This document shows positions 15,391-30,777 of a stretch of DNA of 64,000 nucleotides, piece by piece (within the stretch, counting starts at the first letter, position 1; the number at the start of each line of letters is the position of its first letter). The stretch spans positions 194,626-258,625 of the forward strand of contig VXYL01000068.1 of the NCBI GenBank assembly GCA_009846005.1, given 5' to 3'. Source of the DNA: Gammaproteobacteria bacterium (lineage in GTDB: Bacteria; Pseudomonadota; Gammaproteobacteria; Pseudomonadales; Azotimanducaceae). The notes beneath the pieces were generated by a model that was not told where the DNA came from, made no database searches, and worked only from the letters and a program-made list of their open reading frames with translations. Position numbers and translations under genes: made by a program.

Positions 15391-15789
15391 TCAGGCAACA
15401 ACCCCTATTGCCTGCAGGAGCGCCATGACACCAAGCGCGACTGTACTCAGCGATGTCCCTGCGGCACCGATCAGGCGCAGCGGCGTCTGGACTCGATCAT
15501 GGTGCAGGCCCAGCGGGTGCGCGATGCGGCAGATGACCAGCACGACGCCGATCACATGCAGGAATAGAGAGTTGCCGCCGTTGAGCTCAACAATGGCCAT
15601 CAGGACGATGAGCAGCGGCACATGTTCTGCGAAGTTCCCGTGTCGACGGATCTCCACCGCGAGATGCGTGTTTCCACCGTCGAGGATGGAAATGCCCGTC
15701 TTGGCCCGCAACAATCCGATCCGGGTCGTCAGGCAGACAAGAACCGCGACCAGTAGCGCGGCATACAAAGCTGTGATGGGGACGATCAT
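15391..15789 (-). CDS. MAPEG-family membrane protein
   Basis: This 132-residue protein has four hydrophobic helices: ITALYAALLVAVLVCLTTRIG, given here as ALYAALLVAVLVCL; VPLLIVLMAIVELNG; LHVIGVVLVICRIAH; and TALGVMALL-like near the end. It also has the characteristic RRHGNFAEHVPL segment after helix 1. MAPEG proteins include microsomal glutathione transferases and related small membrane enzymes. Bacterial members such as this are often annotated only by fold. The ATG at 15787-15789 was chosen because upstream in-frame sequence lacks membrane character. It faces the secreted propeller gene convergently and is divergent from the Rieske oxygenase gene. Confidence 0.87.
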   Translation of the reverse strand: MIVPITALYAALLVAVLVCLTTRIGLLRAKTGISILDGGNTHLAVEIRRHGNFAEHVPLLIVLMAIVELNGGNSLFLHVIGVVLVICRIAHPLGLHHDRVQTPLRLIGAAGTSLSTVALGVMALLQAIGVVA

Positions 15790-16007
15790 GGTCAGTGCTC
15801 CGCAAGCGCAACGTTGGTGTTGTTGCAATCCGCCGCTCTTCGAGCGGTGGACCGCACCGGACATCTTAGCGGGGCATGGATTGGCGACGGGGTTGTCGGA
15901 TCGGCTAGTCCGTAGCGCTGGTGCGTCGTTCGCCAGCCTGTCCGGCTTGTGCGGCTCCATGGGCTCTCTGGTACAGTCGCGGCGTTAGCTGCGGAGGGGA
16001 ACTCTGC

Positions 16008-17078
16008 TTGGTCAGCGCAGCGTCGACAGCACAGGATGATCGTCGCCCTACCTCGCCGTTTCCCGACGGCTGGTATTTCGTCGCGAGCCGGCATGCCCTC
16101 TGCGAGCAAACCCTGATCGAGCGGAAATGGCTCGGACAGGAAATCGTGGCATGGTGCGACGATGCGGGTTCGGTATGCGTTGCGGATGCGTACTGCCCGC
16201 ATCTGGGGTCGCACCTCGGCCCTGAAACGGGCGGCAAGGTGCGAAACGGACGGCTGGTCTGCCCGTTCCACGGTTTCGAGTACGACGCGACGGGCCAGTG
16301 CGTCGCTACGCCGAACGCACCGGCGCCGAGGAACGCCAAGCTGAAGCTGTTCGAGACGCAGGTAATCAACGGCTTGGTATTCGCCTGGTGGAGTTCCGTG
16401 GGCCAACCGCCTTATTTCAGACTACCGCTCGACAGGCGGGATGAAGACGGCTGGACCGCTGTGGGCCTGCGGACGTTCCGGCTGACGAGCCATCCCGAGC
16501 ACACGGCCGAGAATTCCGTCGATCTCGCCCACTTCTCGTACATCCACGGGTACTTCGACGTTCACCAGCACGGCTCCGTGACGGTCGATGGCGCGCATCT
16601 TCGTAGCGCTTTCGGCTTCAAGCGCGCACGACCCGTTCTGGGGGGCCGACTACTGTTCGACGTGTCTGTTGTTACCGACGTCTACGGCATGGGCTACTCC
16701 GCCGTCGACATAACCGAACATACGATTCCTTTTAAGTCCCGGTTTTGGGTTCTCGCCACGCCGTTGGACGGCACCTACATGGATCTGTTGTTGGCGAACC
16801 AGACGCAGGAGACCGATCGCGTCAGGCGGGCAATCGTGGGACTTGGTTTCCTTCCGAAACGCATTCGGGCGAAGTTGATGAACTACATCCTGCTGGAGGG
16901 GCAGGTGAAGGACGTTGAACAGGACGTTCCCATCTGGAATCGAAGGGTCTTTCGACCGAGGCCGGTGCTGAACAGCAAGGACGGGAAGATCATGCTGTTC
17001 CGACGCTATTGCAGTCAGTTCTATCCCGAGAACCAGAACACCGGCGGGCAGCCGCGCAGAATGCTCGCTTCGCTGTAG
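16008..17078 (+). CDS. Rieske non-heme iron oxygenase, sterol-oxygenase-like (KshA / DAF-36 / SdmA type)
   Basis: This 356-residue protein probably starts at the TTG at 16008, 7 bases after GGAGGGGA; no ATG fits. The Rieske cluster ligands are in DAYCPHLGSHLG and LVCPFHGFEYD (about residues 60-90). The mononuclear iron site is NSVDLAHFSYIHG (N-x2-D-x2-H-x4-H, about residues 170-182). The motifs around both sites, including FPDGWYFVA, resemble cholesterol 7-desaturase (Neverland/DAF-36), KshA and bacterial SdmA. Those act on sterol or steroid rings, but the exact reaction cannot be read from sequence. An electron-transfer reductase is not encoded nearby. It lies 52 bases upstream of the efflux genes and faces the methyltransferase operon. 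Confidence 0.85.
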   Translation: MVSAASTAQDDRRPTSPFPDGWYFVASRHALCEQTLIERKWLGQEIVAWCDDAGSVCVADAYCPHLGSHLGPETGGKVRNGRLVCPFHGFEYDATGQCVATPNAPAPRNAKLKLFETQVINGLVFAWWSSVGQPPYFRLPLDRRDEDGWTAVGLRTFRLTSHPEHTAENSVDLAHFSYIHGYFDVHQHGSVTVDGAHLRSAFGFKRARPVLGGRLLFDVSVVTDVYGMGYSAVDITEHTIPFKSRFWVLATPLDGTYMDLLLANQTQETDRVRRAIVGLGFLPKRIRAKLMNYILLEGQVKDVEQDVPIWNRRVFRPRPVLNSKDGKIMLFRRYCSQFYPENQNTGGQPRRMLASL

Positions 17079-17130
17079 CCTTTCGCCCGATGGCCGATGA
17101 ACCGACACTGAAGTCCGCCGGAGCGGGCTC

Positions 17131-18699
17131 GTGCTGAGGCCGCCCGGTATCGGCGTTGTCGTCTCGGCGGTGGTGGCGGCGGGTGCCATGGGAGTCCTAT
17201 CCGGATGTTCGGTGGTTTCGGCCCTGCCGTTGCTCGAATGGCCTGGGGGAGACCGGGATAACCCGGACGTACGCGAGGCGGCGGTGTTGGACGCTCCCCA
17301 CCCGTGGTGGGAGTCATTCGACGACCCCGTGCTGAATCGAGTCGTCGAGGCGGTGCTCGAGTCCAACTACGATCTTGCGACCGCGGTGGCGCGGGTGGAA
17401 CAGGCCAGGGCGAGGGCACGGATCGCCACTGCCGCGCGGTTGCCGCGGGTTCAGGCCTTGCTTGGCGCCGTGGAGTTCGACGCGCCGACCAACGTGGGCC
17501 TTGGCGCACAGTTGGAAGACCTGGGGTTGGGGAATGACGCGTTCGCCGCGTTCGGGTTCTCGTTGCCCGATCGGCTTGACCAGGCGACGTATTCCGCAGG
17601 CGCCGAGGTCGCCTACGAGGTCGACTTCTGGGGCCGCGACCGGAACGCCGCGCTGTCTGCGGGTGCGCAGCGCGAGGCGTCCGAGGCGGACTATCGGGCG
17701 GCCCGGATGGGGGTGGTCGTTCAGACGGTGGCAACCTACATCGAGATTGTCGATCTCAATCGTCAGCGTGGCTTCGCAGGTGAGACAGTCGAGATTCTCC
17801 GGGAGTGGGTGACACTCGCGGAGGATCGCTACGACCGGGGCATTGGCGACATCCGCGATGTCTACGCGCTGCGGCGGGGTCTCGCGGATGCCGAGGCGTC
17901 GTTGCCCGGAGTGAATGAGCGTCTGGCCGACGCCGAGGGAAGGCTCACGGTTGTGTTGGGAGGACAGGATCACGCGGGCCTCATGGGTACGCTACCCGAC
18001 AAGATGCCGGTCTCGACGATGGCGCCCGTCCCCACCGGTTTGCCGGCCGAAGCGCTGGCGCAGCGGCCCGATGTCGCGGCGGCACGGCAGCGATTGGCGG
18101 GTGCCCGTTTCGCCCTGGGTGCTCGTCGGGCCGCGTTGTTGCCCTCGTTGTCGCTTTCCGGATCAATCGCCCTGCAGAGTCCGGACACCGCCGCCTGGTT
18201 CGACCCTGACCAGTGGTTCCGGAACCTGAGTTCGAATCTGCTCGCCCCCGTGTTCCAGGGAGGCCGGCTACGCGCCGATGTGGCCCTTGCCGAAGCCGCG
18301 CTGGATGAAGCTACGGCGACGTACGGGCACGCCGTGGTGGCCGCCGCTGCGGAGGTCGAAGCGGCGTTGGGTGGGTTGGAGTCGAACCGGCAACGCCTGG
18401 CTCTGGTGTCCTCTTTCGCGGAGGAAGCGCGAGCGGAGGCAACGCTGCAGGAGCAGCGCTACGCGTCCGGGATCGGCGACTACAGGACGTTCCTCGCAGC
18501 ATCGCAGATGAACGTTGGTGCCAGGGCTGCGCGTGCCTCGGCGGAGCGCGACTTGGCGTATGCGCGGCTTGCACTGCACCGTGCCCTGGGCGGTGCTTGG
18601 TCGCCGAACGCCGTAGGAATGGGCGGCACCCACAGGGAGGTTGGCGAGCCTCCGGTGTTCGCAGGTGAACGCGCCGAAGAAGAGGCAGAAGGAGGGTAA
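17131..18699 (+). CDS. RND efflux outer-membrane lipoprotein (NodT/OprM family)
   Basis: This 522-residue channel component starts at a GTG. It has a lipoprotein signal with lipobox LSGC (about residue 26) and two OEP repeats. The first begins WWESFDDPVLNRVVEAVLESNYD and continues through long helices (VEQARARARIATAARLP). The second starts around LPAEALAQRPDVAAARQRLAGA. The repeated internal symmetry and length match TolC/OprM-type trimeric channels. The product sits in the outer membrane and docks with the adaptor encoded 2 bases downstream. The inner-membrane pump is not in this operon but is encoded on the opposite strand at 20999-24229, which links the two convergent operons. Confidence 0.93.
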   Translation: MLRPPGIGVVVSAVVAAGAMGVLSGCSVVSALPLLEWPGGDRDNPDVREAAVLDAPHPWWESFDDPVLNRVVEAVLESNYDLATAVARVEQARARARIATAARLPRVQALLGAVEFDAPTNVGLGAQLEDLGLGNDAFAAFGFSLPDRLDQATYSAGAEVAYEVDFWGRDRNAALSAGAQREASEADYRAARMGVVVQTVATYIEIVDLNRQRGFAGETVEILREWVTLAEDRYDRGIGDIRDVYALRRGLADAEASLPGVNERLADAEGRLTVVLGGQDHAGLMGTLPDKMPVSTMAPVPTGLPAEALAQRPDVAAARQRLAGARFALGARRAALLPSLSLSGSIALQSPDTAAWFDPDQWFRNLSSNLLAPVFQGGRLRADVALAEAALDEATATYGHAVVAAAAEVEAALGGLESNRQRLALVSSFAEEARAEATLQEQRYASGIGDYRTFLAASQMNVGARAARASAERDLAYARLALHRALGGAWSPNAVGMGGTHREVGEPPVFAGERAEEEAEGG

Positions 18700-18701
18700 G
18701 G

Positions 18702-19904
18702 GTGCGTAAGAGAACGGGCTATCTCGTCGGCATCGTCCTGGTTGCCGGGGCCGTGGGCGTGGCCACCGTGCTGGTGTCGCTTGCACCGCAGCCCGAGACG
18801 CATGAGCCGCCTTCGCTACTTCCGTACGTCAACACCGCCATCATCGTCGCGGGCACGGGGCCGATCCCGGTCCGTGGCGCGGGTACGGTGCGCCCGAGCG
18901 CGGAGGTCGACATCGCGCCGCAGGTGGGCGGAAGGGTGGTTTGGGTGGACGAGGGTTTCGTCAGCGGTCGGCACGTCGTTGCCGGGCAGACCCTGTTCCG
19001 TCTCGAGGAGGCGGACTACGAGCTCGGCGTGCGCCAGGCACAAGCCGCTTTGGCCGCCCGGGAGGTAGCGCTCCTCGAAGCTCGCGAAGACGCGGCAATC
19101 GCACAGGCCGAGTATGAGCGCTACGCGGCTAGACAAGGCGAGAACGCGTCGACCAAGCCGAATCCGTTAACTCTGCACATCCCCCAGTTGAAGGCGGCCC
19201 AGGCGGCCCTGGCGCGGGAAGAAGCTGCCTTGGCGCAGGCCGAACTGGCGTTGTCCCGCACCGGGGTTACGGCGCCGTTCGATGGCGTAGTACACGACGA
19301 GTCGGTGGACATCGGACAGCTGCTGGCGCCAGGCCAGTCGGTGGGTAGATTGTTCTCTTCGGACGCGGTGGAGGTGGTGGTGGCTCTCTCCGACGCGGAC
19401 GCCGCATTGATTCCCCGGCTTTGGCGCCTCGAAGGCGAACGCCAGGACATCGTCGCCGTCGTGTACGCCGAGTACGGCGACGTCGCATATGCCTGGCGGG
19501 GATACGTGGATCGGGCGGACGCCTCCCTCGATGCCGAGACCCGCACCATCGACGTGATTGTCCACGTACCGGACCCCTTTGCGCCGGGCGGTCCGGCTGG
19601 GTCGGGAGCGAGTGAGAACACGGCCCCGCCGCTCCTCGTGGGCAAATTCGTGGAAGTGGCCATCGAGGGGTTGGTGCCCGACGACTACTTCAGGGTGCGC
19701 CGTGCCGCATTGCAGGCGGACGATGAGATCTGGACGGTTCGCGACGGTACCGTGCGCGTTGTGCCGGTTCGAGTCCTGCAACTCATCGACGATGACGCCT
19801 ACGTCACGGGCGAACTCGAAGACGGCCAGTTGGCCGTCACGGGCGGCATCCGGTTCGCGACCCAGGGCATGAAGGTCCGTACGGGGGATTCCCGGGGACA
19901 ATAG
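18702..19904 (+). CDS. RND efflux periplasmic adaptor (membrane fusion protein)
   Basis: This 400-residue protein starts at a GTG preceded by GGAGG. It has an N-terminal membrane anchor (YLVGIVLVAGAVGVATVLVSL, residues 7-27) without a lipobox. The lipoyl/biotinyl half-motifs (AEVDIAPQVGGRVVWVDEGF and TGVTAPFDGVVHDESVDIG) flank a coiled-coil hairpin (about residues 105-190). Beta-barrel and membrane-proximal domains follow. The protein bridges the outer-membrane lipoprotein encoded immediately upstream and the RND pump on the opposite strand. Its gene ends about 90 bases before the end of the convergent methyltransferase gene, with a repeat between them. Confidence 0.92.
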   Translation: MRKRTGYLVGIVLVAGAVGVATVLVSLAPQPETHEPPSLLPYVNTAIIVAGTGPIPVRGAGTVRPSAEVDIAPQVGGRVVWVDEGFVSGRHVVAGQTLFRLEEADYELGVRQAQAALAAREVALLEAREDAAIAQAEYERYAARQGENASTKPNPLTLHIPQLKAAQAALAREEAALAQAELALSRTGVTAPFDGVVHDESVDIGQLLAPGQSVGRLFSSDAVEVVVALSDADAALIPRLWRLEGERQDIVAVVYAEYGDVAYAWRGYVDRADASLDAETRTIDVIVHVPDPFAPGGPAGSGASENTAPPLLVGKFVEVAIEGLVPDDYFRVRRAALQADDEIWTVRDGTVRVVPVRVLQLIDDDAYVTGELEDGQLAVTGGIRFATQGMKVRTGDSRGQ

Positions 19905-19910
19905 AAGGCG

Positions 19911-19998
19911 TCGTAGGGCGACCCCAACGCGCCCGTCAGGGCGCGCGGTCGCCCGCTGGATGCACGACCTCGGGCGGGGACAAGCCCCGCCCCTACGC
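19911..19998. repeat. GTAGGGG-type palindromic repeat, copy 4, between convergent operons
   Basis: The element runs from TCGTAGGGCGACCCC to GCCCCGCCCCTACGCG, with an internal inverted pair around GCGCCCGTCAGGGCGCG. It separates the 3' ends of the adaptor gene and the sterol methyltransferase gene. The methyltransferase TAG stop (19993-19995 on the minus strand) is part of the repeat terminus. Confidence 0.75.
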
Positions 19999-21009
19999 GG
20001 GTTTGCGGGCCAAGAAACAGTAAAGCGGCGTGAAAACTCCCGACTCGCCGCCAGCGACGTATGCATCGGCGGTTCGATCCATCAATTGCACAACCGCGGT
20101 CGAACCTTTCGGAAAATAGCGCAACGCCTCGGCCACCCTAAGTGCGCCGATCATCGCCTTGCGGCCCAAGGGCGTCCGGCGAAACGCGCTGCGCAATGTC
20201 CCGCGCCGTCCCTGCATCGGCTGGTACCACGGCGTGCTCGGCCCATCTTGTATGTCCCGATCAGCGGCCTCGATGACCTCGAATCCGACCGCTTCGAGCG
20301 CACGGTTTACTTCGGCGAACGTGGCGATGTCGTGCAAGGCGATCCCTAGCATCAGGTCTCTCTTGATGGCTTCGTGACGACTGTCGTCGGGATCGAAGTT
20401 GTCGGTCATGCACATTTCCTGGCCCCAGAACAACGCTCCCGGCTTTAGCACGCGGTAGATCTCCGCGAACGCTTGTCGCTTGTCCGGCGCATGGCAGGTC
20501 GACTCGATTGCGTACCCGCCATCGAAGGTGCAGGTGTCGATGGCGCTCATGTCCATGAAGTTGCACTTCATGTATTCGGCCATATGGTCGAGCCCCGCTT
20601 CGACGTTTTTTCGCTTGGCCTCGCCGAGTTGCTGTGCGTTGTTGTTGAGGCAGAAGACCTTCGCGCCGGACTCGCGCACCACGCGGCGCATCGGCCCCCC
20701 GACGCCACACCCGATGTCGATGATCGTCATGCCCTTGCGCAGTTGCAGCCGGTCGATCATCAGGCGCTGATGGCGGGTGATCGAGTCCTCCAGGCTCTCC
20801 CCGGGCGTGAGCGGCGCGAAATGCAGCGACTCGGTCCATCCGAACTGCATGAATTCGCTGCACAGGTCGTAGTAGTCGTTGACCGTCTCGGTGTGGTCGT
20901 AGTCGCCCCGCTTGTTCCTGTCGAACCAGGTACCGTAGCGAGCCACGCGGCCCTTGACGTTCGAACCGCGGTGCGCGCGCCACAGGTTTCTCGACAGGTT
21001 AGTCAGCAT
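19993..21009 (-). CDS. Sterol C-24 methyltransferase homologue (Erg6/SMT family)
   Basis: This 338-residue S-adenosylmethionine methyltransferase shows the hallmark SMT regions in order. They are YYDLCSEFMQFGWTESLHFA (sterol-binding region I), DIGCGVGGPMRRV (SAM motif), LNNNAQQ, YAIESTCHAPDK (region II/III of Erg6), IYRVLKPG, and STPWYQPMQG plus VAGGESGVFTP in the C-terminal SMT domain. These match fungal and plant Erg6/SMT better than generic cyclopropane or tocopherol methyltransferases. The likely reaction is methyl transfer to the C-24 side-chain double bond of a sterol. The ATG at 21009 overlaps the pump gene by 11 bases; starts at 21069 or 21078 are possible. Bacterial SMT homologues are known but rare. 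Substrate specificity is inferred. Confidence 0.85.
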   Translation of the reverse strand: MLTNLSRNLWRAHRGSNVKGRVARYGTWFDRNKRGDYDHTETVNDYYDLCSEFMQFGWTESLHFAPLTPGESLEDSITRHQRLMIDRLQLRKGMTIIDIGCGVGGPMRRVVRESGAKVFCLNNNAQQLGEAKRKNVEAGLDHMAEYMKCNFMDMSAIDTCTFDGGYAIESTCHAPDKRQAFAEIYRVLKPGALFWGQEMCMTDNFDPDDSRHEAIKRDLMLGIALHDIATFAEVNRALEAVGFEVIEAADRDIQDGPSTPWYQPMQGRRGTLRSAFRRTPLGRKAMIGALRVAEALRYFPKGSTAVVQLMDRTADAYVAGGESGVFTPLYCFLARKPA

Positions 21010-24000
21010 GCGGATAGTCGGAAGCGACCTGCGCGGAGGTCGTTGCCGCGGGCGCCGGGTTTTTATCATGGCCCCCAACCAAGCCTAGGCGTATCGAGTA
21101 CAGGGCTGGGATGAGTACGATCAGGATGGCGGTCGTGAACATGATGCCGAAACCGAGGGACGCGGCGAAGGGGCGCAGGTACTGTGCCTGAATGGCCTGT
21201 TCCAGAATGAGAGGCGTGAAGCCTAGGAAGGTAGTCACGGAGGTCAGCATGATCGGTCTGAAACGGCGCTTGGCGCCCTCGATGATCGCGGTTCGCACGG
21301 GTGTGCCTTCGCGTACGCGCTGATCGATGGCGTCGAGCATGACCAGCGAGTCGTTCACCACGACGCCGCTCAATCCCAGGATGCCCAGGATGGCCGTCGT
21401 CGTGAACGTAAGCCCCAGTATCAGGTGGCCCAGAATCACGCCGACGATGCCGAAGGGGATCGCCGCCATGACGATGAACGGCTTGGTGTAGGACCGAAGG
21501 GGAATCGCCAAAAGCGCGAAGATCACCAGCATGGCGACCGCGAACCCGCGATAGAGCGAATCGAGAGAATCAAGCTGCTGCTGCTGTTCACCGCCTAGCA
21601 TGTACGTCAGGTCCGGATTCGCGGCGGTGAGTTCCGGGAGGACTGAACCGACCAGCACCTCGTTGGCTTCCCCGCCGGTGATAACGGTCAGATCCACATC
21701 GGCGGTGACGGTGACCGCGCGCTGACCGTCCCTGCGACGGACGCTCGGCGCGGCGACACTCGTCTTAAGCGTAGCGACCTGGCGAAGCGGAACCTCGCCG
21801 CCTGAAGCGGTGCGAATGGGATACGCCTCGATGTCGGCGATGGCGTTGCGTTCGTCGTCGGGCAGACGCACGAACACGCCGACCTCGTCCCGGCCTCTCT
21901 GCACGCGCTCGACTTCCGCGCCGAAGAACGCGGCCCGCGCCTGCACCGCCAGTGCCTCCTGGGTGAGCCCGAGGGTCCGAGCTTCCGGCTTGAGCGCGAG
22001 CTGGATCTCCTTGACGCCGGGCGTGTGGTCCGAGCGCACGTCGAACACGCCGTCGATGCTTCGGAGGCTGTCAGCCAGACGACTCGCGATCGAGGGGAGA
22101 CGTTCGGAGTCCGGGTGCGAGAGAAGAACCTCCACGGGATTGCCGAAGTCGACGACCTCGCCGCTGAAGGTGATGCCCCGGACATAAGGCGGACTACCCA
22201 CTTCCTCGCGCCAAGCCTGAACGACTTCGCCGGTGGTGACCTGTCGCTGTTGCACGCCGACGAGCTTGAACTCGATGGCCGCAACGTTGGCCTGGGGATT
22301 CAACGTGGCTGCCGGCGTAAGTCCCCCGCCTTCCCGACGCGGTCCCTGGCCGACCGTCACCGTCACCCCGGTTACCACGGATGGCGCGTCCTCGGCCCGA
22401 TCCCGGGTTAGACGTTCGATCGCGTTGTAGCCGGCCGCCTCCAATTCCTTCGCCACCTCGTAGGTTCTGTTCGCGGGCGTCCCGTCCGGCATCTCGAGAC
22501 GGGCTGTTGCGAAATCGCCCTCCACGACGTCGGCGAAGGAGGAGGTGACGATGCCGGCGGGCAACAGGGAAACACTCAGGATAAAGAGCCCCAACGCGCC
22601 GGCGACCACGACGGCGGGCTGGTCGGTCGCGAAATTTAGCGCCCGGTCCAGGGGACCGTCGACGAACCGGGCCAGCTGGCGGTCGACATGGCCCTTGGTT
22701 CGCGCAAAAAACTCATCCACGCCATTGGTGGGCACCCATTCGGGACCGTGCAAGTGCGACAGGTGGTTGGGAAGTACGAACAGCGACTCGAACAAGGAGA
22801 TCAGCAGCATGGCGATGATCATGATGGGCAGGGCCAGCCAGGCGTCGCCGATGCCCCCGGGAATGAAGAAAACGGGGGTGAACGCCACGATCGACGTCAA
22901 CACGGCGAATGTCAGCGGCACCTTGATGCGTCGGGCGCCGCGAATCGCGGCGACAAGGCCTGGTATTCCGCGCTGGCGTTCGAGGTGGATGTTTTCGGCC
23001 ACGATGATCGCGTCGTCGACGATTATTCCGATCGCCAGAACGAACACGAACAGAGAGTGCAGGTCGAGCGCGACATCGAGGATCAGCATGACGGCCAGAA
23101 CGCCGACGAGCGACGTGGCCAGCCCGACGACAACCCACACCGCGAGGCGGATCTCCAGGAACAGAGCCAGCGCGACAAGGACCAGCATGAGGCCTAGGGC
23201 GCCGTTCTTGAGCAGGAGCTCGGCGCGTTCGGAGTAGGTCTGCGACTCGTCGTTCAGGATGTCTACCTGCACGCCCTCCGGTAGCGACGGCACGATCACG
23301 TTGGCGACATGCTCGTGCACGGCCGTCGCAACCTCCAGCACGTGCTCCCCTTCAACGCGGGAGACCTCGACGAACGCGGCCGGCTTGTCTTCGTGGCGGA
23401 CGATCAGGTCGACATCCTCGAAACCGTCCCGAACCTCCGCGATGTCGCCCAATCGGACCGTCGTGCCGTCGCTCAAGCTAAGCACCACGATCTCCTCGAA
23501 GTCCTGTTGAACGTAACGCTGCCCGAGGGAGCGAATCCTTACCTGCTCGTCCGCGGTGTCGATGCGCCCGGCGGACAGGTCGAGGGAGCTGCGGCGAACG
23601 GCGGCGGCGATGTCGTCGAGGGTTAGCCCCAGAGAGCGCAGTCGGTTCAACGGCACTTCGATGGAGATTTCGTAGTCCCGCAGGCCGCTGGTTTCGACCA
23701 GCGATACGGTTGGGAGCGATGCGAGTTCGTCTTCGATCTGGTAGGCAAGCTCCTTCAGCGAGCGCTCCGAAATGTCGCCGTAGACGACCAGTCGAATAAT
23801 GCTCTGTCGAGAAGTCATCTCGGTGATTTCGGGGCGCCGGGCGCCGAGGGGAAACGTCTGGATGCGGGAAACGGCCGACTCGACGTCGTCTATCGCCTTG
23901 GGAATATCCGTGCCGGATTTCACTTGGATCCTGACCGAGGCCACCCCCGGCGCAGCGGTCGACTTGACGGCGCGGACGCCGTCGAGCGAGCTGACCTGTT

Positions 24001-24229
24001 CCTCGACTTTGACGACGATCGACTCCTCCACCTCCTCGGGCGTCGCGCCGGGATAGGCGATGGAAACCTCGATGTGGTTGAAGGCCAACGTCGGCCAGGA
24101 TTGGCGCTCCAAGCCGGGGAGCGACACGAGACCGGCCGCCAGGATCGCGAACATGAGCAGGTTGGCGGCGACGCCGTTGCTCGCCATATAGGCGATGGGT
24201 CCGGCCGGCTCCCCCGAATGGTCGTTCAC
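20999..24229 (-). CDS. RND efflux pump, inner-membrane permease (HAE-1/AcrB superfamily)
   Basis: This 1,076-residue permease has the internal duplication of RND pumps: twelve predicted membrane helices and two large periplasmic loops. The signature GIIVDDAIIVAENIHLE in helix 4 carries the proton-relay aspartates. The second half has GLSGVVVNDSLVMLD and YTKPFIVMAAIPFGIVG. The start is a GTG 14 bases after the P450 stop, and the 3' end overlaps the methyltransferase gene, so it is the middle gene of a three-gene operon. Its adaptor and outer-membrane partners are the two plus-strand genes at 17131-19904. The BstA sterol transporter of methanotrophs is also RND-type, which makes a lipid or sterol cargo plausible, though drug efflux is possible. 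Confidence 0.93.
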   Translation of the reverse strand: MNDHSGEPAGPIAYMASNGVAANLLMFAILAAGLVSLPGLERQSWPTLAFNHIEVSIAYPGATPEEVEESIVVKVEEQVSSLDGVRAVKSTAAPGVASVRIQVKSGTDIPKAIDDVESAVSRIQTFPLGARRPEITEMTSRQSIIRLVVYGDISERSLKELAYQIEDELASLPTVSLVETSGLRDYEISIEVPLNRLRSLGLTLDDIAAAVRRSSLDLSAGRIDTADEQVRIRSLGQRYVQQDFEEIVVLSLSDGTTVRLGDIAEVRDGFEDVDLIVRHEDKPAAFVEVSRVEGEHVLEVATAVHEHVANVIVPSLPEGVQVDILNDESQTYSERAELLLKNGALGLMLVLVALALFLEIRLAVWVVVGLATSLVGVLAVMLILDVALDLHSLFVFVLAIGIIVDDAIIVAENIHLERQRGIPGLVAAIRGARRIKVPLTFAVLTSIVAFTPVFFIPGGIGDAWLALPIMIIAMLLISLFESLFVLPNHLSHLHGPEWVPTNGVDEFFARTKGHVDRQLARFVDGPLDRALNFATDQPAVVVAGALGLFILSVSLLPAGIVTSSFADVVEGDFATARLEMPDGTPANRTYEVAKELEAAGYNAIERLTRDRAEDAPSVVTGVTVTVGQGPRREGGGLTPAATLNPQANVAAIEFKLVGVQQRQVTTGEVVQAWREEVGSPPYVRGITFSGEVVDFGNPVEVLLSHPDSERLPSIASRLADSLRSIDGVFDVRSDHTPGVKEIQLALKPEARTLGLTQEALAVQARAAFFGAEVERVQRGRDEVGVFVRLPDDERNAIADIEAYPIRTASGGEVPLRQVATLKTSVAAPSVRRRDGQRAVTVTADVDLTVITGGEANEVLVGSVLPELTAANPDLTYMLGGEQQQQLDSLDSLYRGFAVAMLVIFALLAIPLRSYTKPFIVMAAIPFGIVGVILGHLILGLTFTTTAILGILGLSGVVVNDSLVMLDAIDQRVREGTPVRTAIIEGAKRRFRPIMLTSVTTFLGFTPLILEQAIQAQYLRPFAASLGFGIMFTTAILIVLIPALYSIRLGLVGGHDKNPAPAATTSAQVASDYPHAD

Positions 24230-24243
24230 GCGCGCCTAGGTTG

Positions 24244-26259
24244 TCAGACCGGGTTTCGAACCCTGGCAACGCGGAACTTCAGCTTCTTGCTCGGGGCCGC
24301 GGTCGGAAACGGATTTATGCGCATCTTGTAGTTGACGGGCAGCATCTCCAGTTCCAGGTGATGCGCGATCACTAGCAGGTTCACGACCATCTGCAGTTCC
24401 AGCCACCGATGTCCCAGGCAGGTGTGCGTGCCGAGACCGTACGGCACATAGGCGCCCGGGATCATGTCCTCCCGGCGTTCCGGTAGGTAGCGGTCGATGT
24501 CGAACTCGAGCGGATCCGTGAACAGGTCTTCGGAGTAGTGCGTCGCCGTGTGACAAATCAACAGCCGCGTCCTGGGCGGTAGTTCGAAGCCGTTGACCAC
24601 GCATTGGTTCATGACCGTCCGTAGCTGCCAGGGGATTACCGGATACATGCGTTCGGACTCCAGGAAGAGCCGATGCGTGACGTCGATATTGTCGAGGTTG
24701 CTGAAATCCTCGGGGCGTGGCTCGCGATTTCCGCCGAACAGCGAATCGGCTTCCTTGCGGATGCCGGCATGGAGGTTGGGGTCGTTGACCATGGCATACA
24801 CGGCGAAACCGAGCGCGCTGCCGAGATAGATGCTGGCGACCATGGCTGCGACGAAGGGAAACGTGATGTCCGTCTCCGGGAGGAACTGCGGGTCGTTCCG
24901 ATGTAGTTCGAGGATGGCATCGGCGACGTCGAGCGGCTTGCCCTTTCTCTGAGCAGGCGTGTGCGATGTGTGAATGGCGTCGAGCAGTTCGCGCACATAT
25001 TCTCTGGAACGCCTCATCTTCGGTGTCGACATCATGAACTTGGGCAGCGCGCCTTGAACGTGCGTAACGAGTGCGCGGTGCTCGTAGGCGAGCAGATCGT
25101 CGACGAAGTGGCTGCAGTCGACGCCCATGGTCAAATGCGAGACTTGGCTGCTCATGGTGTTCTGGAAGGTCTTCGTTGCGCCGAACACATCGCCCTCGTT
25201 CCACGCGCCGACCGACTCTTTGCAGAGCGAGATCAGCTCGGGCAAGCGTTGGGCGAGCGTTGCCCGGGAGTAGGCGGAGCGGAGTGACTTGCGCATCTTG
25301 TGATGCTCGGCGCCATCCATGCCCGGCAATGTTCGCGAAGCGCCGAAGACACCCTCGAGTCCTTGGATGTAGTCCTTGGATCGAAGGTAGAACCTGCCCT
25401 GCTTGTTTACCCAGTTGTTGCAGTCCGGCCCCATCAGCGCCACGACGGGTTGCCCGTTCATGCTGATGGGCACCTTCACCACCGGCCCGTGTTTCTCGAA
25501 GATGCGGCACGTCGCCTTGGGAATGTTGCCTGCGAGGAGATCAGGCTGTCGCAGGATGTCGACCACCGGCAGCTTCGGGATGGGCTTGGTGAGAAGAACG
25601 GGCCGGGTCTTCGGCTTGACCGTGCTGTCCTTCACGGCCCTCGCCACGGATCGTCCGACCAGGTCCATGCCGGCGACCGTCTCGATGCGCTCGAGTTTCT
25701 CCTCGTAGTCTTCTTCCGACAGAAGCGTTTTGAAGCCGTCGCAGGTGTGCATCAGTCCCACGAGGATGACATCCCTCGGGTCGGGGATGTCGTCGTTCAG
25801 CACGACGTTGAGGATGCGGGCTTTGGCTTCCCTTCGGATTGATCCGTCCGCGCTTGGGTACATGCCCGACCGGGAAACGGAGCGCGACAGCGTCCAGAAT
25901 CCACCCGACTCGTATTCGAGCACGCCCTTGTCGACCAGTCGTTGCAGCGTCAGGGTGACGATTTCTTCCGATCGGGCGCTATTCCGTTCGATCCAATACT
26001 GCGTATCCGAGCGGTCTTCGGCCTCGCTGATCTCCTCAAGCGTCGGATCGAGCAGCCTGTCGCCTGTTGGCCTGGCATCGAGGAGATATAACGACTGCAA
26101 ATCGGTGTCGATGCGGTCTTCCAACGCCAGGTCGGCGATGACCGCGCCTGCCATCACGCAGGAGAAGTCCCAACCCGGCACCATTTCGAGGTAGCCGCTC
26201 GACTCGTCGAGCATCAACAGGATCAGCTCTTCCGTCAGGCGTATTCGGAACTCGTCCAT
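24244..26259 (-). CDS. GPP34 (GOLPH3/Vps74-like) domain fused to a cytochrome P450
   Basis: This 671-residue protein appears to be a two-domain fusion. Residues about 1-215 look like GPP34: RIRLTEELILLMLDE and GYLEMVPGWD, then AVIADLALEDRIDTD, LQRLVDKGVLEYE and an all-helical end with ILVGLMHTCDGFKTLL. Residues about 225-671 are a P450, with ESERMYP (ExxR), FDIDRYLPERRE and the heme-thiolate motif YGLGTHTCLGH (Cys about 612). The I-helix region VAAMVASIYLGSALGFAV lacks the usual acidic-Thr pair. GPP34 binds phosphoinositides in eukaryotes; in bacteria its role is unclear, and here it may dock the enzyme on membrane lipids. It is the first gene of the operon with the RND pump and the sterol methyltransferase. 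Confidence 0.87.
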   Translation of the reverse strand: MDEFRIRLTEELILLMLDESSGYLEMVPGWDFSCVMAGAVIADLALEDRIDTDLQSLYLLDARPTGDRLLDPTLEEISEAEDRSDTQYWIERNSARSEEIVTLTLQRLVDKGVLEYESGGFWTLSRSVSRSGMYPSADGSIRREAKARILNVVLNDDIPDPRDVILVGLMHTCDGFKTLLSEEDYEEKLERIETVAGMDLVGRSVARAVKDSTVKPKTRPVLLTKPIPKLPVVDILRQPDLLAGNIPKATCRIFEKHGPVVKVPISMNGQPVVALMGPDCNNWVNKQGRFYLRSKDYIQGLEGVFGASRTLPGMDGAEHHKMRKSLRSAYSRATLAQRLPELISLCKESVGAWNEGDVFGATKTFQNTMSSQVSHLTMGVDCSHFVDDLLAYEHRALVTHVQGALPKFMMSTPKMRRSREYVRELLDAIHTSHTPAQRKGKPLDVADAILELHRNDPQFLPETDITFPFVAAMVASIYLGSALGFAVYAMVNDPNLHAGIRKEADSLFGGNREPRPEDFSNLDNIDVTHRLFLESERMYPVIPWQLRTVMNQCVVNGFELPPRTRLLICHTATHYSEDLFTDPLEFDIDRYLPERREDMIPGAYVPYGLGTHTCLGHRWLELQMVVNLLVIAHHLELEMLPVNYKMRINPFPTAAPSKKLKFRVARVRNPV

Positions 26260-26483
26260 GTCATCGCCTCGGGATCAGGCAGCGGAGAGGGCCGACGATT
26301 GTCAACAAGCCCCGTTGGAATTGTCTCGCAACAATGAACGATCCAATGGGGGTGGTCAAGGACTGGTCCACCGCTCAAATTGGCGAACGAATCGCGTAAA
26401 TGCCCGGAGCCACAGGTGTTGTATCAGTGTAGAACTGTGCAATACCCTGAACTGACGAACCTGGGTACTTGAAGCCAACGTCG

Positions 26484-27317
26484 ATGGCGTCTCCGCCGGT
26501 TTTGCTCGCCGCGTACGCGGGAGCGGTCTTCTTGGCGTCCGTGGCAGGAGGAAGGCTCTCCGAATACGGGGCAATGACGCACCGGCGTGCGCAAATCGTG
26601 ATGAGCTTCGTTGCGGGCTTCATCCTGGGGATCGCCGTGTTCCACCTTCTGCCCCACGGCTTGGAGCGGATTCCAGGACCCAACGACTTCGAGACCGCAG
26701 CGCTGTGGATCATGTTCGGGATGGTCGTAATGATCGTCCTGCTGCGGGTATTCGACTTCCATCAGCACGACTTCAGCGCCGAAGCCGAAGCGGTGCACGG
26801 ACACGAGAGAGTTCGCAAGGGCGGCTTGTTTGGCGTCGCCCTGGGCCTTGGCTTGCACACCGTGACGGAAGGCGCCGCACTCGGCGCGAGCGTACGCGTC
26901 GGCTTCGTGGAGGAAGGTGTGCTGCCAGGGCTCGGGGTGTGCCTCGCCATCCTGCTCCACAAGCCGCTGGACGCCTATTCGATCACCGGTATGATGAAGC
27001 ACGCGGGGCACACTCCGCGAGCGCGGCTGGCAGCAAACCTCGCCTACGCGCTGATCTGCCCTGTCGTGGCGGTCGGAAGCTACCTTGGCGCGGGCATGCT
27101 CGGCCCAATCGCCGAAGGTCCGACTATCGGTCGCGCCCTCGCCTTCGCGGTCGGCGCTTTCGTGTGCATTTCGCTCAGCGATCTCCTGCCGGAAATCCAT
27201 TTTCACCGTCACGATCGCGGCAAGCTGCTGGTTGCTCTTTCGGTGGGGATCAGCCTCGCGTACGCGCTGTACCTCGTAGAGGCGATGGCCATGCACGATG
27301 GGCACGGTGACCACTGA
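26484..27317 (+). CDS. ZIP-family divalent metal transporter
   Basis: This 277-residue membrane protein has about eight hydrophobic helices and the ZIP metal-site motifs HTVTEGAALGAS (helix 4) and LLHKPLDAYSITGMMKHAG (helix 5). A His/Asp/Glu-containing loop FDFHQHDFSAEAEAVHGHER precedes helix 4. Family members move Zn2+ or related ions into the cytoplasm. The ATG at 26484 was preferred over an in-frame TTG at 26469, though neither has a convincing ribosome-binding site. It lies about 1.2 kb before a ZnuD-like TonB receptor gene, so a zinc-uptake role is inferred from both family and context. Confidence 0.87.
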   Translation: MASPPVLLAAYAGAVFLASVAGGRLSEYGAMTHRRAQIVMSFVAGFILGIAVFHLLPHGLERIPGPNDFETAALWIMFGMVVMIVLLRVFDFHQHDFSAEAEAVHGHERVRKGGLFGVALGLGLHTVTEGAALGASVRVGFVEEGVLPGLGVCLAILLHKPLDAYSITGMMKHAGHTPRARLAANLAYALICPVVAVGSYLGAGMLGPIAEGPTIGRALAFAVGAFVCISLSDLLPEIHFHRHDRGKLLVALSVGISLAYALYLVEAMAMHDGHGDH

Positions 27318-28524: not shown

Positions 28525-30777
28525 ATGACTTACCCAACTCAGCGAGTCGGTGCTACAGGCGCGACTCGGGCTGCTCTCACTGCCGTGTTCGCTGTGCTGG
28601 TGCTTGTGTCGGCACGAACGGCGTTGTCGGAACAGTCCGATTGCGAGGCGGACGGCGCCGAACAGGATCAGCAGATCGACGAGGTGGTGGTTCACGGCCA
28701 CCCGCTCGGCGGTGCCGTCTCCCAGGCAACGGACATTCTCGACGGCGAGGAGCTCGACCACGCCGCGCGCCAGACGGTCGGCGAGACTCTCGCCCAGATA
28801 CCCGGGGTGCACTCGGCGTCCTTCGGCCCCGCCGTCGGCCAGCCCGTGATTCACGGCCTGACCGGCACCCGCGTGCTCGTTCTCGAAAACCACGTCTCGT
28901 CGATGGATGTCTCCTCGAGCGGGTCTGACCACAGCATCACGGTCGAGCCGTTCCTCGCGGACCGCATCGAGGTCGTCAAGGGCTCGGACACCCTGCTTTA
29001 CGGGTCGGGCGCCATGGGCGGCGCGGTGGACGTGCACACGCGCCGCATACCGGGCGAAGTACCGGAAGATGCGCTGTCGGGACGCTTGTTCATTCGCGGT
29101 GACAACGGCTCGGACGCCCGCCGTGCCGGTTTCCGCCTGAACGGCGGTGGCGGCGGATGGGCGTGGCACCTCGACGGCTATTCGGGCGAGAACGGGGATT
29201 TGGCCATTCCAGGCTATGCGGCTCTCGATCCCCACCACGACGAAGAGGAGGAGCACCACCACGAGGAAGAGGGCGAGGACCACCACGAAGAGGAAGAGCA
29301 TGAAGAGCCCGTAAAGGGTGTCTTGGAGAACAGTTTCGGCGATTACTCCGGCGGGGCTTTCGGCACCGCGTTCCACGGTGAATCCGGCCACTTCGGGGTT
29401 GCCGTTGCCGTTCGCGACTGGACCTACGGCATCGTGGGTACCCATGCCCACGGTGAAGAGGAACACCATGAGGAGGAGGAAGCTCACGAAGAACACGAAC
29501 ACGACGAAGACGAACACGACGAGCATGCCGAGGAACACCACGAGGAGACTCCCTGGATCGTCCTTGAGCAAACGAAGTTCATGTCCGATTTCGGGCTGCA
29601 CGAACCGCTTCCCGGGTTCGCCTCATTGGAGGGGAGCGTCGTGATCAGCGACTACCAGCACAACGAACTCGAGAGCGAAGGTGAAGTCGGCAGCTATTTC
29701 GGCAACGATGCATGGCAGGCGCGCGCCGTCTTGGAGGCAGAACCACGGGGTGACTGGGAGTCGGCCGTCGGCGTCCAGTTCGGTGCCAGCGACTTCGTGT
29801 TCGGGAGCGAAGGCGAATTCGAACCCGTCGATTCCAGCCACTGGGCGATTTTCGGGGTGGCCCATGGCGACATGGACAAATTCAAGCTGGAAACGGGTGC
29901 CCGGCTCGAGTCCGTCGAGCATGTCGACCACAGCGGCCAAAGTCTGGACTTCCTGGCGACGAGCGTATCCGTCGGCGTGGCGGTTCCGGTCGACGAGTGG
30001 GAGTTCACGGCACGCCTAGACCGGTCGATGCGGGCACCCGAAGGCGAGGAACTGTTTGCCGCCGGAGTCCATCTCGCAATCGGCGGATTTCAGATGGGTA
30101 GCGCGGACCTCGACGAGGAGCAGTCGTTGAACTTCTCGGTCGGCGCCGCGTACCGCAGGGAAGGACTGGAACTGAGATTCGAGGGCTACCGGTACGGTTT
30201 CGACAACTTTATATACCAGCGTGAGATCGACGAGCACCACGACGACCACGACGACCACGACGACCATGACGACCAGGACGACCACGACGATCACGAAGAC
30301 CACGACGAATTGCCCGTGTTCCAGTGGTCTCAGACCGAGGCGACGCTGCTCGGATTCGATGCCGAGGCGCGCGTCGCACTGCTCACAGAAGCGCAGGCAA
30401 CGGCGGACCTGGTGTTCGGATACGACTGGGTCAGTACCGACGTCGACGATCCGCACGAAAGCCATCTGCCGCGCATTCCACCGCAACGGCTGTCGATCGC
30501 CGTGGAGGCGGCTTGGAAGGATCTGTGGGGTCGCGTCGCCTATACGCACTATTCCGACCAGGACGAGGTGACCAGTCACGAAACGCCGACGGGCGGCTAC
30601 GGCAACCTGGATGTCGAAGGCGAGTATGCGACGAGGCTAGGCGAAGCCAATCTGGTGTTCTTCGTCGCTGGACGCAATCTCGGCGACGAGGAGCAACGCC
30701 AGCACTCGTCCTTCGTGAAGGACGAAGCGCCGCTGGCCGGTCGCCGTATCGAGGCGGGCGTTAGGATCTGGTTCTAG
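28525..30777 (+). CDS. TonB-dependent outer-membrane receptor, ZnuD-like, with His/acid-rich loops
   Basis: This 750-residue receptor has a leader (AALTAVFAVLVLVSARTALS), a TonB-box-like segment before VVVHGHPLGG, and a plug domain (ILDGEELDHAARQTVGETLA through GSGAMGGAVDVHTRR). A 22-strand beta-barrel follows, ending with the aromatic C-terminus GVRIWF. Three stretches (about residues 235-268, 312-345 and 570-592) are nearly all His, Asp and Glu, which fits capture of Zn2+ or another divalent metal as in ZnuD. It needs TonB and a periplasmic zinc-binding partner encoded elsewhere. The ZIP transporter at 26484 supports a zinc role. The GAC/CAC runs are coding and not a DNA repeat. Confidence 0.87.
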   Translation: MTYPTQRVGATGATRAALTAVFAVLVLVSARTALSEQSDCEADGAEQDQQIDEVVVHGHPLGGAVSQATDILDGEELDHAARQTVGETLAQIPGVHSASFGPAVGQPVIHGLTGTRVLVLENHVSSMDVSSSGSDHSITVEPFLADRIEVVKGSDTLLYGSGAMGGAVDVHTRRIPGEVPEDALSGRLFIRGDNGSDARRAGFRLNGGGGGWAWHLDGYSGENGDLAIPGYAALDPHHDEEEEHHHEEEGEDHHEEEEHEEPVKGVLENSFGDYSGGAFGTAFHGESGHFGVAVAVRDWTYGIVGTHAHGEEEHHEEEEAHEEHEHDEDEHDEHAEEHHEETPWIVLEQTKFMSDFGLHEPLPGFASLEGSVVISDYQHNELESEGEVGSYFGNDAWQARAVLEAEPRGDWESAVGVQFGASDFVFGSEGEFEPVDSSHWAIFGVAHGDMDKFKLETGARLESVEHVDHSGQSLDFLATSVSVGVAVPVDEWEFTARLDRSMRAPEGEELFAAGVHLAIGGFQMGSADLDEEQSLNFSVGAAYRREGLELRFEGYRYGFDNFIYQREIDEHHDDHDDHDDHDDQDDHDDHEDHDELPVFQWSQTEATLLGFDAEARVALLTEAQATADLVFGYDWVSTDVDDPHESHLPRIPPQRLSIAVEAAWKDLWGRVAYTHYSDQDEVTSHETPTGGYGNLDVEGEYATRLGEANLVFFVAGRNLGDEEQRQHSSFVKDEAPLAGRRIEAGVRIWF

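Follow-up and report, generated by a model that had tools for sequence, protein, structure and literature searches.

The steroid gene clusters (CSGs) described in symbionts of Ircinia sponges are, in the available text of PMC9531527, synthesis clusters with ERG24, CYP51 and lanosterol synthase that are found in symbiont genomes of many phyla, often together with a sterol methyltransferase (SMT), and that show signs of horizontal transfer. Bacterial SMTs from sponge symbionts are active in vitro (PMC10070321); the available text of that study presents 24-isopropyl and 26-methyl sponge sterols as fossil evidence for the earliest animals, with the bacterial contribution disputed, and states that the proteins behind further side chains of geological importance are still undiscovered, C-26 being named next. 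In Methylococcus, the BstA/BstB/BstC system is linked to sterol genes and includes an inner-membrane protein of the resistance-nodulation-division (RND) superfamily; as the available text of PMC10942540 describes it, BstA belongs to the MMPL family, was modelled on HpnN and has two partners from other transporter families. Here we describe a six-gene locus in a 64,000-nucleotide stretch (the window; contig VXYL01000068.1, positions 194,626 to 258,625) of an Azotimanducaceae genome (Gammaproteobacteria), which brings together an SMT, a Rieske oxygenase, a fusion of a GPP34 domain to a cytochrome P450 (GPP34-P450, hereafter the fusion) and a tripartite RND pump. We consider it probable that the six genes form a module for tailoring and exporting sterols, found repeatedly across several phyla, many of its carriers being sponge symbionts, and that the sterols it would work on come from outside the cell.

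The locus shares with the Ircinia CSGs its occurrence in sponge symbiont genomes of many phyla and the frequent presence of an SMT, and in five loci related to it the fusion adjoins such a cluster; however, the window set has no cyclase and contains another SMT class, GPP34-P450, a KshA-like Rieske oxygenase and a tripartite pump. The main text of PMC9531527 does not mention RND or Rieske proteins and has P450 once, in the reference list. The window SMT resembles those of PMC10070321 in enzyme family and host kind; its class is on average 37% identical to the cluster-type class. The main text of PMC10070321 leaves RND, transport, P450 and Rieske unmentioned. BstA had been offered by the original prediction, made from the letters of the window, as a precedent for RND-type sterol transport, but this does not hold for the present pump, which is of the AcrB type and has its own adaptor and outer-membrane channel (compared with the available text of PMC10942540). 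A BstA/HpnN type was rejected for the pump, with 19.6 bits against a cut-off of 1100 for HpnN and no BstA among the matches with E up to 0.001. The suggestion that the locus may not have been described stands for the assembled set and not for its context, sterol clusters and SMTs of sponge symbionts having been published: among the papers listed by our literature search, judged by titles and the starts of abstracts and with bioRxiv and most subscription papers outside its scope, none deals with GPP34-P450 or the assembled set.

The locus (Table 1) sits inside a 304-kb contig of a genome that is 97.16% complete. Domains of the six proteins were called with Pfam and NCBIfam profiles, and these, with the open reading frames (ORFs), bear out the predicted genes and strands as well as the 14 bases between the fusion and RND genes and the 11-base overlap of the RND and SMT genes. 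The Rieske gene starts at a TTG at 16008, after a GGAGGGG stretch, the longest ORF being 15921-17078, and the SMT gene at an ATG at 21009, within a longest ORF of 19993-21078; an LSGC lipobox is read from the translation of the outer-membrane factor at residues 23-26. Promoter and terminator scans gave a yield no higher than in shuffles. A binning artefact was rejected, since the locus is interior to its contig and its fusion-RND-SMT-adaptor part is also found in a single-contig genome of 4.3 Mb (G062; genomes and loci are cited by our numbers, G and L).

Table 1. Genes of the locus, with positions in the window and the profile match behind each call.
Gene product	Position	Strand	Profile match
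Rieske non-haem iron oxygenase, KshA type	16008..17078	+	Rieske + KshA_C (Pfam)
Outer-membrane factor lipoprotein, NodT/TolC family	17131..18699	+	OEP/NodT, TIGR01845 256.6 bits
RND periplasmic adaptor (membrane fusion protein)	18702..19904	+	RND_mfp TIGR01730 152 bits
Sterol methyltransferase (SMT), class B	19993..21009	-	Sterol_MT_C PF08498 7.4e-17
RND inner-membrane pump, AcrB type	20999..24229	-	ACR_tran 1e-152
GPP34-P450 fusion protein	24244..26259	-	GPP34 1.7e-34 + p450 1.7e-31

The fusion is present in 17 of 100 family genomes: G000 (the window genome), G006, G007, G013, G033, G040, G045, G057, G060, G062, G063, G067, G081, G092, G094, G096 and G097, the gene being split over two contigs in G094 and having a partial N-terminal domain in G045. 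The pump, at an identity of at least 58%, was found in 11 of these 17 genomes and in none of the other 83. Below this comes, at E up to 1e-240, a match of 42% identity in the non-carrier G035. Sterol_MT_C was likewise confined to carriers (14/17 vs 0/83), as was the Rieske protein at E up to 1e-50 (14/17 vs 0/83), and a reductase over the ERG4_ERG24 cut-off was present in 15/17 carriers vs 3/83 others (16/17 vs 7/83 with weak matches included). Fisher p values for pump, SMT and Rieske range from 9e-11 to 1.5e-14, values that overstate the association because the genomes are related. Carriers stand beside non-carriers within genera (g1 3/5, g7 3/5, g34 3/4, g15 1/4), and pump and SMT track the fusion within g1, g7 and g34.

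Twenty aligned fusions were then used in one scan of a genome collection, which gave at least 338 relatives, of which the best 80 were kept; with the window and 13 stretches of up to 20 kb around fusions, from the search of the 100 family genomes, they make up 94 loci, some of them near-copies or from one genome. Seven stretches were left out: L022-L025, L027 and L029, which duplicate contigs of the set, and L030, the other half of a split gene. In the tblastn partner tally, the window-type pump was accepted above 45% identity, the two other pump types above 35%, and SMT, Rieske and K6, a flavin oxidoreductase considered below, at E up to 1e-15. In 83 of the 94 fusion loci, an RND-family pump, an SMT or a Rieske lies nearby: the window-type pump in 42, a second RND pump type in nine and an MMPL pump in 13 (any pump, 64/94), an SMT of either class in 42, a Rieske in 51 (SMT or Rieske, 70/94) and K6 in 24. 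Pump, SMT and Rieske were all absent from 11 loci, namely the distant fusions L039 and L040, L096, and eight on stretches shorter than 18 kb, one of them the distant fusion L041. The loci show 69 gene-order patterns, a number inflated by cut contigs, and all six genes are found together in other loci, in other orders included. This joint recurrence, together with the genome-by-genome co-occurrence, indicates that the six-gene set is more than chance, and the gene set, which the original prediction proposed to look for in other genomes, is indeed kept in relatives and in other phyla.

According to record titles, the fusion loci come under 10 phylum labels. In a FastTree tree of 95 fusions, 13 changes of phylum label are needed, against a possible minimum of nine and a shuffled mean of 39.4, with more than one change required for each of Pseudomonadota, Acidobacteriota and Rhodothermota; some transfers of the fusion from phylum to phylum thus seem likely, while the tree does not support frequent transfer. 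As to hosts, four of the 80 collected loci belong to Aplysina aerophoba bins named in the available text of PMC5649159, nine carry the jk18x names of the Ircinia study (PMC9531527, available text), the one study to which a host search by genome names led, and 23 bear the prefixes RHO, COS, CAR, IRC or APA, which we matched, presumably correctly, to the sponge species given in the available text of PMC8163846; the other 44 of the 80 are without a traced source. The window fusion is nearest to fusions in COS, RHO and IRC bins (90-95% identity), and on this ground the window organism likely lives in a sponge host.

A connection to sterol genes is seen in five loci (L073, L075, L078, L111 and L120), where the fusion adjoins a sterol synthesis cluster with a squalene epoxidase-oxidosqualene cyclase (SE-OSC), an ERG4/ERG24 reductase, an SdmA-like Rieske and a CYP51-like P450, plus an SdmB-like dehydrogenase in four of them (all except L111, in the stretch examined). 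One representative of each cluster gene family was scanned for domains: in L073 (19303-21993) the SE and SQHop_cyclase domains lie in one reading frame, and the cluster-type Rieske (K13) and the SdmB-like protein score 412 bits for SdmA and 305 bits for SdmB, each below the cut-off of 600. The class B SMT defined below stands between fusion and synthesis cluster in L073, L075 and L078; in L111 both SMT classes are represented, by one gene each, along with the KshA-like Rieske, L120 has a class A SMT only, and in L118 SdmA- and SdmB-like genes adjoin the fusion. K6 (Amino_oxidase/NAD_binding_8, about 462 residues), possibly a sterol reductase or desaturase, is seen at L097:8401-9789, L102:7357-8712 and in 22 other loci, and also adjoins the SE-OSC gene in L151, L152 and L155, where it is 73-78% identical to that of L097.

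Within the family, SE-OSC-sized reading frames (1125-1300 residues) that match a cyclase occur in 6/17 carriers vs 0/83 others, so that no oxidosqualene cyclase was detected in 11/17 carriers; hopene-type matches occur in five family genomes, all non-carriers of the fusion, and a cyclase fragment in the non-carrier G098 allows no typing. In a wider test of 50 carrier genomes (from 50 of the 80 loci), some SQHop_cyclase_C match was found in 26 and the SE-OSC type in 12, tblastn confirming it in 11 stretches plus L073. Matches to the SE-OSC gene by tblastn are seen in L146-L155, L157 and L158, where it belongs to synthesis clusters. Sterol_MT_C was present in 41 of 51 carrier genomes (the 50 tested and the window's) and in none of 14 control genomes; the SMT is therefore often retained in genomes in which no oxidosqualene cyclase turned up. 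The window genome, in which the original prediction proposed to look for an oxidosqualene cyclase, has no match to SQHop_cyclase_C (PF13243), and de novo sterol synthesis by the window organism was rejected on this account; the set more likely works on outside sterols. The genome nevertheless has one ERG4/ERG24-type reductase (G000:C99:88739-89782; L168:9198-10286), despite no oxidosqualene cyclase being found. In another member of the window's genus, G108 (L157), a distant RND pump has an SE-OSC-like gene nearby, and members of the genus thus seem to differ in sterol synthesis.

The window SMT, the sole Sterol_MT_C copy found in its genome, matches Methyltransf_11 (6.6e-15) and Sterol_MT_C, both over the cut-offs, and no SMT is named among its 19 hits in the PDB at the threshold used. 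A tree of 52 SMTs was built with a quick method, after removal of five repeats and one partial row and exclusion of hits shorter than 250 residues. One branch, of length 1.09 and support 100, splits 39 rows (class B) from 13 (class A), with the placement of one long row, L028, unsure. Class B consists of 38 SMTs at most 7 kb from a fusion and one from L070; class A, of six beside synthesis clusters (away from the fusion-side label), five with neither neighbour, and those of L111 and L120, which lie inside a synthesis cluster that itself adjoins the fusion. Mean identity is 61% among class B members and 51% among class A members, and across the two classes it is 37%. The consensus is FYEFGWGxSFHFAPR in class A vs FMxFGWxESLHFAPL in class B; the window protein reads FMQFGWTESLHFAPL, lacks the class A (cluster-type) motif and has diverged around FGW. 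Judged from the tree and these identities, class B is a distinct, diverged class of SMT, apparently recognised here for the first time.

The nearest solved structures of the Rieske protein are those of KshA, the 3-ketosteroid 9alpha-hydroxylase (4qdc, E 4.6e-24), with which it shares the Rieske + KshA_C architecture, and the CxH..CxxH Rieske motif and the DxxHx4H iron motif are present in all 47 rows of at least 330 residues, the window's included. Unlike KshA, it is linked to an SMT and a P450, with no ring-degradation setting among the neighbours checked. It had been called KshA/DAF-36/SdmA-like: the likeness to KshA is upheld, but SdmA was rejected (NF052579, 31.1 bits against a cut-off of 600). 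The window genome has a second Rieske copy (G000:C16), around which the stretch examined contains none of the other genes of the set, and VanA_C has no match in that genome.

In the fusion, GPP34 spans about residues 8-210 and the P450 about 230-652. The GPP34 part is detectably related to GOLPH3 (3kn1, 1.6e-6) and Vps74, and may perhaps hold the enzyme at a lipid surface. E534 and R537 of the ExxR motif and the haem ligand Cys614 are invariant in the 20 aligned fusions. The nearest solved P450s are CYP51 (9e-19) and the cholesterol 24-hydroxylase CYP46A1 (3e-17), and the three enzymes are thus, as originally predicted, of sterol-acting kinds by domain (Sterol_MT_C, KshA_C) and nearest solved relatives (KshA, CYP51, CYP46A1). 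An AlphaFold2 model of the fusion (mean pLDDT, the predicted local distance difference test score, 85.7) matches P450s in general, with CYP51, CYP46A1 and CYP102 alike. Although sterol 14alpha-demethylases of the CYP51 family are its nearest solved relatives by sequence, the P450 was rejected as CYP51: it is fused to GPP34 and lacks AGQHTS and PxFGxGVxYD, which we take as CYP51 signatures and which are both kept in the neighbouring CYP51-like P450s.

The I-helix of the fusion is also altered (about residues 470-488). In P450s the acid-alcohol pair of this helix serves oxygen activation; at its position the window protein reads Tyr-Leu. Five cluster-type P450s of these loci served as an internal control; the fusions of the window clade have ASIYLGSA, AGHYLGSA and similar segments where these CYP51-like P450s have AGQHTS, with Tyr in every row that includes the segment, followed mostly by Leu or Met and in five rows by Thr. 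This P450 group with an altered I-helix appears to be new. The distant fusions L039-L041 keep the usual helix (AGLET or AGLDT); none of the pump, SMT and Rieske genes is found in their stretches, and they are a possible outgroup for the function of the fusion.

All parts of a tripartite system are present in the locus: the ACR_tran pump, the RND_mfp adaptor and the outer-membrane factor. Their linkage in many arrangements suggests that they would form one exporting machine, export itself being read from the kind of pump and this linkage. The window genome has 19 RND matches, of which all but the locus copy are at most 38% identical to the locus pump, whereas its identity to fusion-side pumps of other phyla is 57-75%; the two nearest paralogues (C43, C12) have an adaptor of their own that is only distantly related (30-31%). 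The original prediction named a placing of the pump with multidrug-only clades as an outcome that would count against it; instead, the pump forms its own subfamily, and this subfamily is tied to the set, being confined to fusion carriers in the family at the identity given above.

In Chloroflexota the tripartite pump is found in none of 15 loci, and an MMPL pump in 10; the other three MMPL loci are from bacteria without an assigned phylum. This MMPL pump (about 825 residues; L102:13289-15766 and 12 other loci) takes the place of the tripartite pump in Chloroflexota and scores 200 bits for HAE3, 111 for HpnN and 35 for BstA. These Chloroflexota are not known to have an outer membrane, and the lack of one would explain the absence of the tripartite pump. 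In the single MMPL pump that was scanned, matches to sterol-sensing and Patched models were obtained; this is only suggestive of a sterol, as MMPL proteins may match these models generally. The second RND type is a third, distant kind of pump, present in nine loci; K8, the adaptor that goes with it, is found in seven. That three kinds of pump accompany the same enzymes argues for the importance of moving the product. The tie of a pump subfamily to an SMT class and a P450, and its MMPL substitute in Chloroflexota, appear to be described here for the first time.

Taking into consideration that the fusion co-occurs with sterol genes and adjoins them in five loci, the proposal of sterol tailoring and export is supported, and we outline a possible route in which substrate, reactions, reaction order and direction of transport are all read from sequence. 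The substrates would be sterols supplied by the sponge host, by its food or by a neighbouring symbiont that makes sterols. The SMT would C-methylate an unsaturated sterol, probably on its side chain; hydroxylation or desaturation of the ring system would fall to the KshA-like Rieske, and GPP34-P450 would modify the sterol further, perhaps held by GPP34 at a lipid surface, with assistance from the ERG4/ERG24-type reductase coded elsewhere in the genome. The pump, adaptor and channel would then take the product from the inner membrane or the periplasm and pass it into the outer membrane or through it.

Several observations weigh against this reading. Within the family, Rieske and SMT are each missing from 3/17 carriers; the only Rieske match is away from the locus, at 38-53% identity, in G006, G013, G045, G062 and G097, and the SMT lies on a contig other than that of the window-clade fusion in G040, G057, G081 and G092. 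The SMT near the L120 fusion belongs to class A. No SE-OSC was detected in 38 of the 50 carrier genomes, which are incomplete metagenome-assembled genomes, and the strong clustering of phylum labels in the fusion tree means that transfers between phyla were few. Since the usual I-helix pair is lost in most rows, ordinary oxygenation by the P450 is not assured, and no electron-transfer partner for the Rieske or the P450 was identified within the set. Finally, the closest PDB relatives of the AcrB-type pump are multidrug pumps, MexK and MdtB among them.

This last point, and the patchiness of the set within genera, as resistance loci can be, would also fit a role in defence, with enzymes and pump together detoxifying steroid-like or other membrane-active compounds from the sponge or its community and expelling them, modification serving only as a mark for efflux. 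We regard this as unlikely, because a plain efflux locus would need no SMT, would not track ERG4/ERG24 reductases (15/17 vs 3/83) or adjoin sterol synthesis genes, and in Chloroflexota it is the pump type that differs while the enzymes stay. The KshA_C domain, with KshA as the nearest solved relative, could in turn point to catabolism of sterols or steroids, the Rieske starting ring opening and the other genes aiding uptake or side-chain removal. However, an SMT adds carbon, which fits building and not breakdown, and no degradation gene is apparent among the recurrent neighbours, of which some families were checked, catabolic genes not having been searched genome-wide; we find this very improbable.

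We give as little credence to a substrate that is another polycyclic terpenoid (a hopanoid, a triterpenoid or a sponge-type terpenoid) instead of a sterol. In its favour, substrate drift is possible within enzyme families, the SMT belongs to a diverged class and squalene-hopene-type cyclases do occur in some carrier genomes of other groups, but the window genome is without any SQHop_cyclase_C match, the five hopene-type matches of the family are in genomes without the fusion, and the neighbours that identify a pathway are of sterol kinds (SE, SdmA/SdmB-like, CYP51-like, ERG24).

The presence of the module under 10 phylum labels, mostly without a detected oxidosqualene cyclase, suggests that symbionts may remodel sterols made elsewhere, which bears on the origin of the unusual sponge sterols. 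A bolder version, which we hold to be rather doubtful, is that the module makes and secretes some of these unconventional sterols, the class B SMT and a non-ordinary P450 chemistry building a non-canonical side chain, for instance with a C-26 methyl, from host or symbiont sterols, and the pump acting as a sterol-dedicated AcrB-type machine, so that sterol metabolism would be split among members of the sponge community, with products passed between cells; we know of no AcrB-type tripartite machine dedicated to sterols. The candidate enzymes (class B SMT, GPP34-P450 and KshA-like Rieske) and transporters make a bacterial contribution directly testable, and the loci also provide a P450 group whose active-site helix is unusual and, in the three pump types with the same enzymes, a natural comparison.

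Other genes were observed around the fusion loci. A gene for a MAPEG-family membrane protein (window 15391-15960, minus strand) adjoins the Rieske gene, and the same is seen in a close relative (L043:20331-20780). Beyond the other end of the locus come a ZIP transporter (26469-27317) and a TonB receptor (28525-30777) with very His/Glu/Asp-rich stretches, which look like a zinc uptake pair. In L074-L078, runs of paralogues of two families, K16 (about 570 residues, with, by eye, a lipoprotein-like start and a thioredoxin-like end) and K11 (about 305 residues), stand to the left of GPP34-P450.

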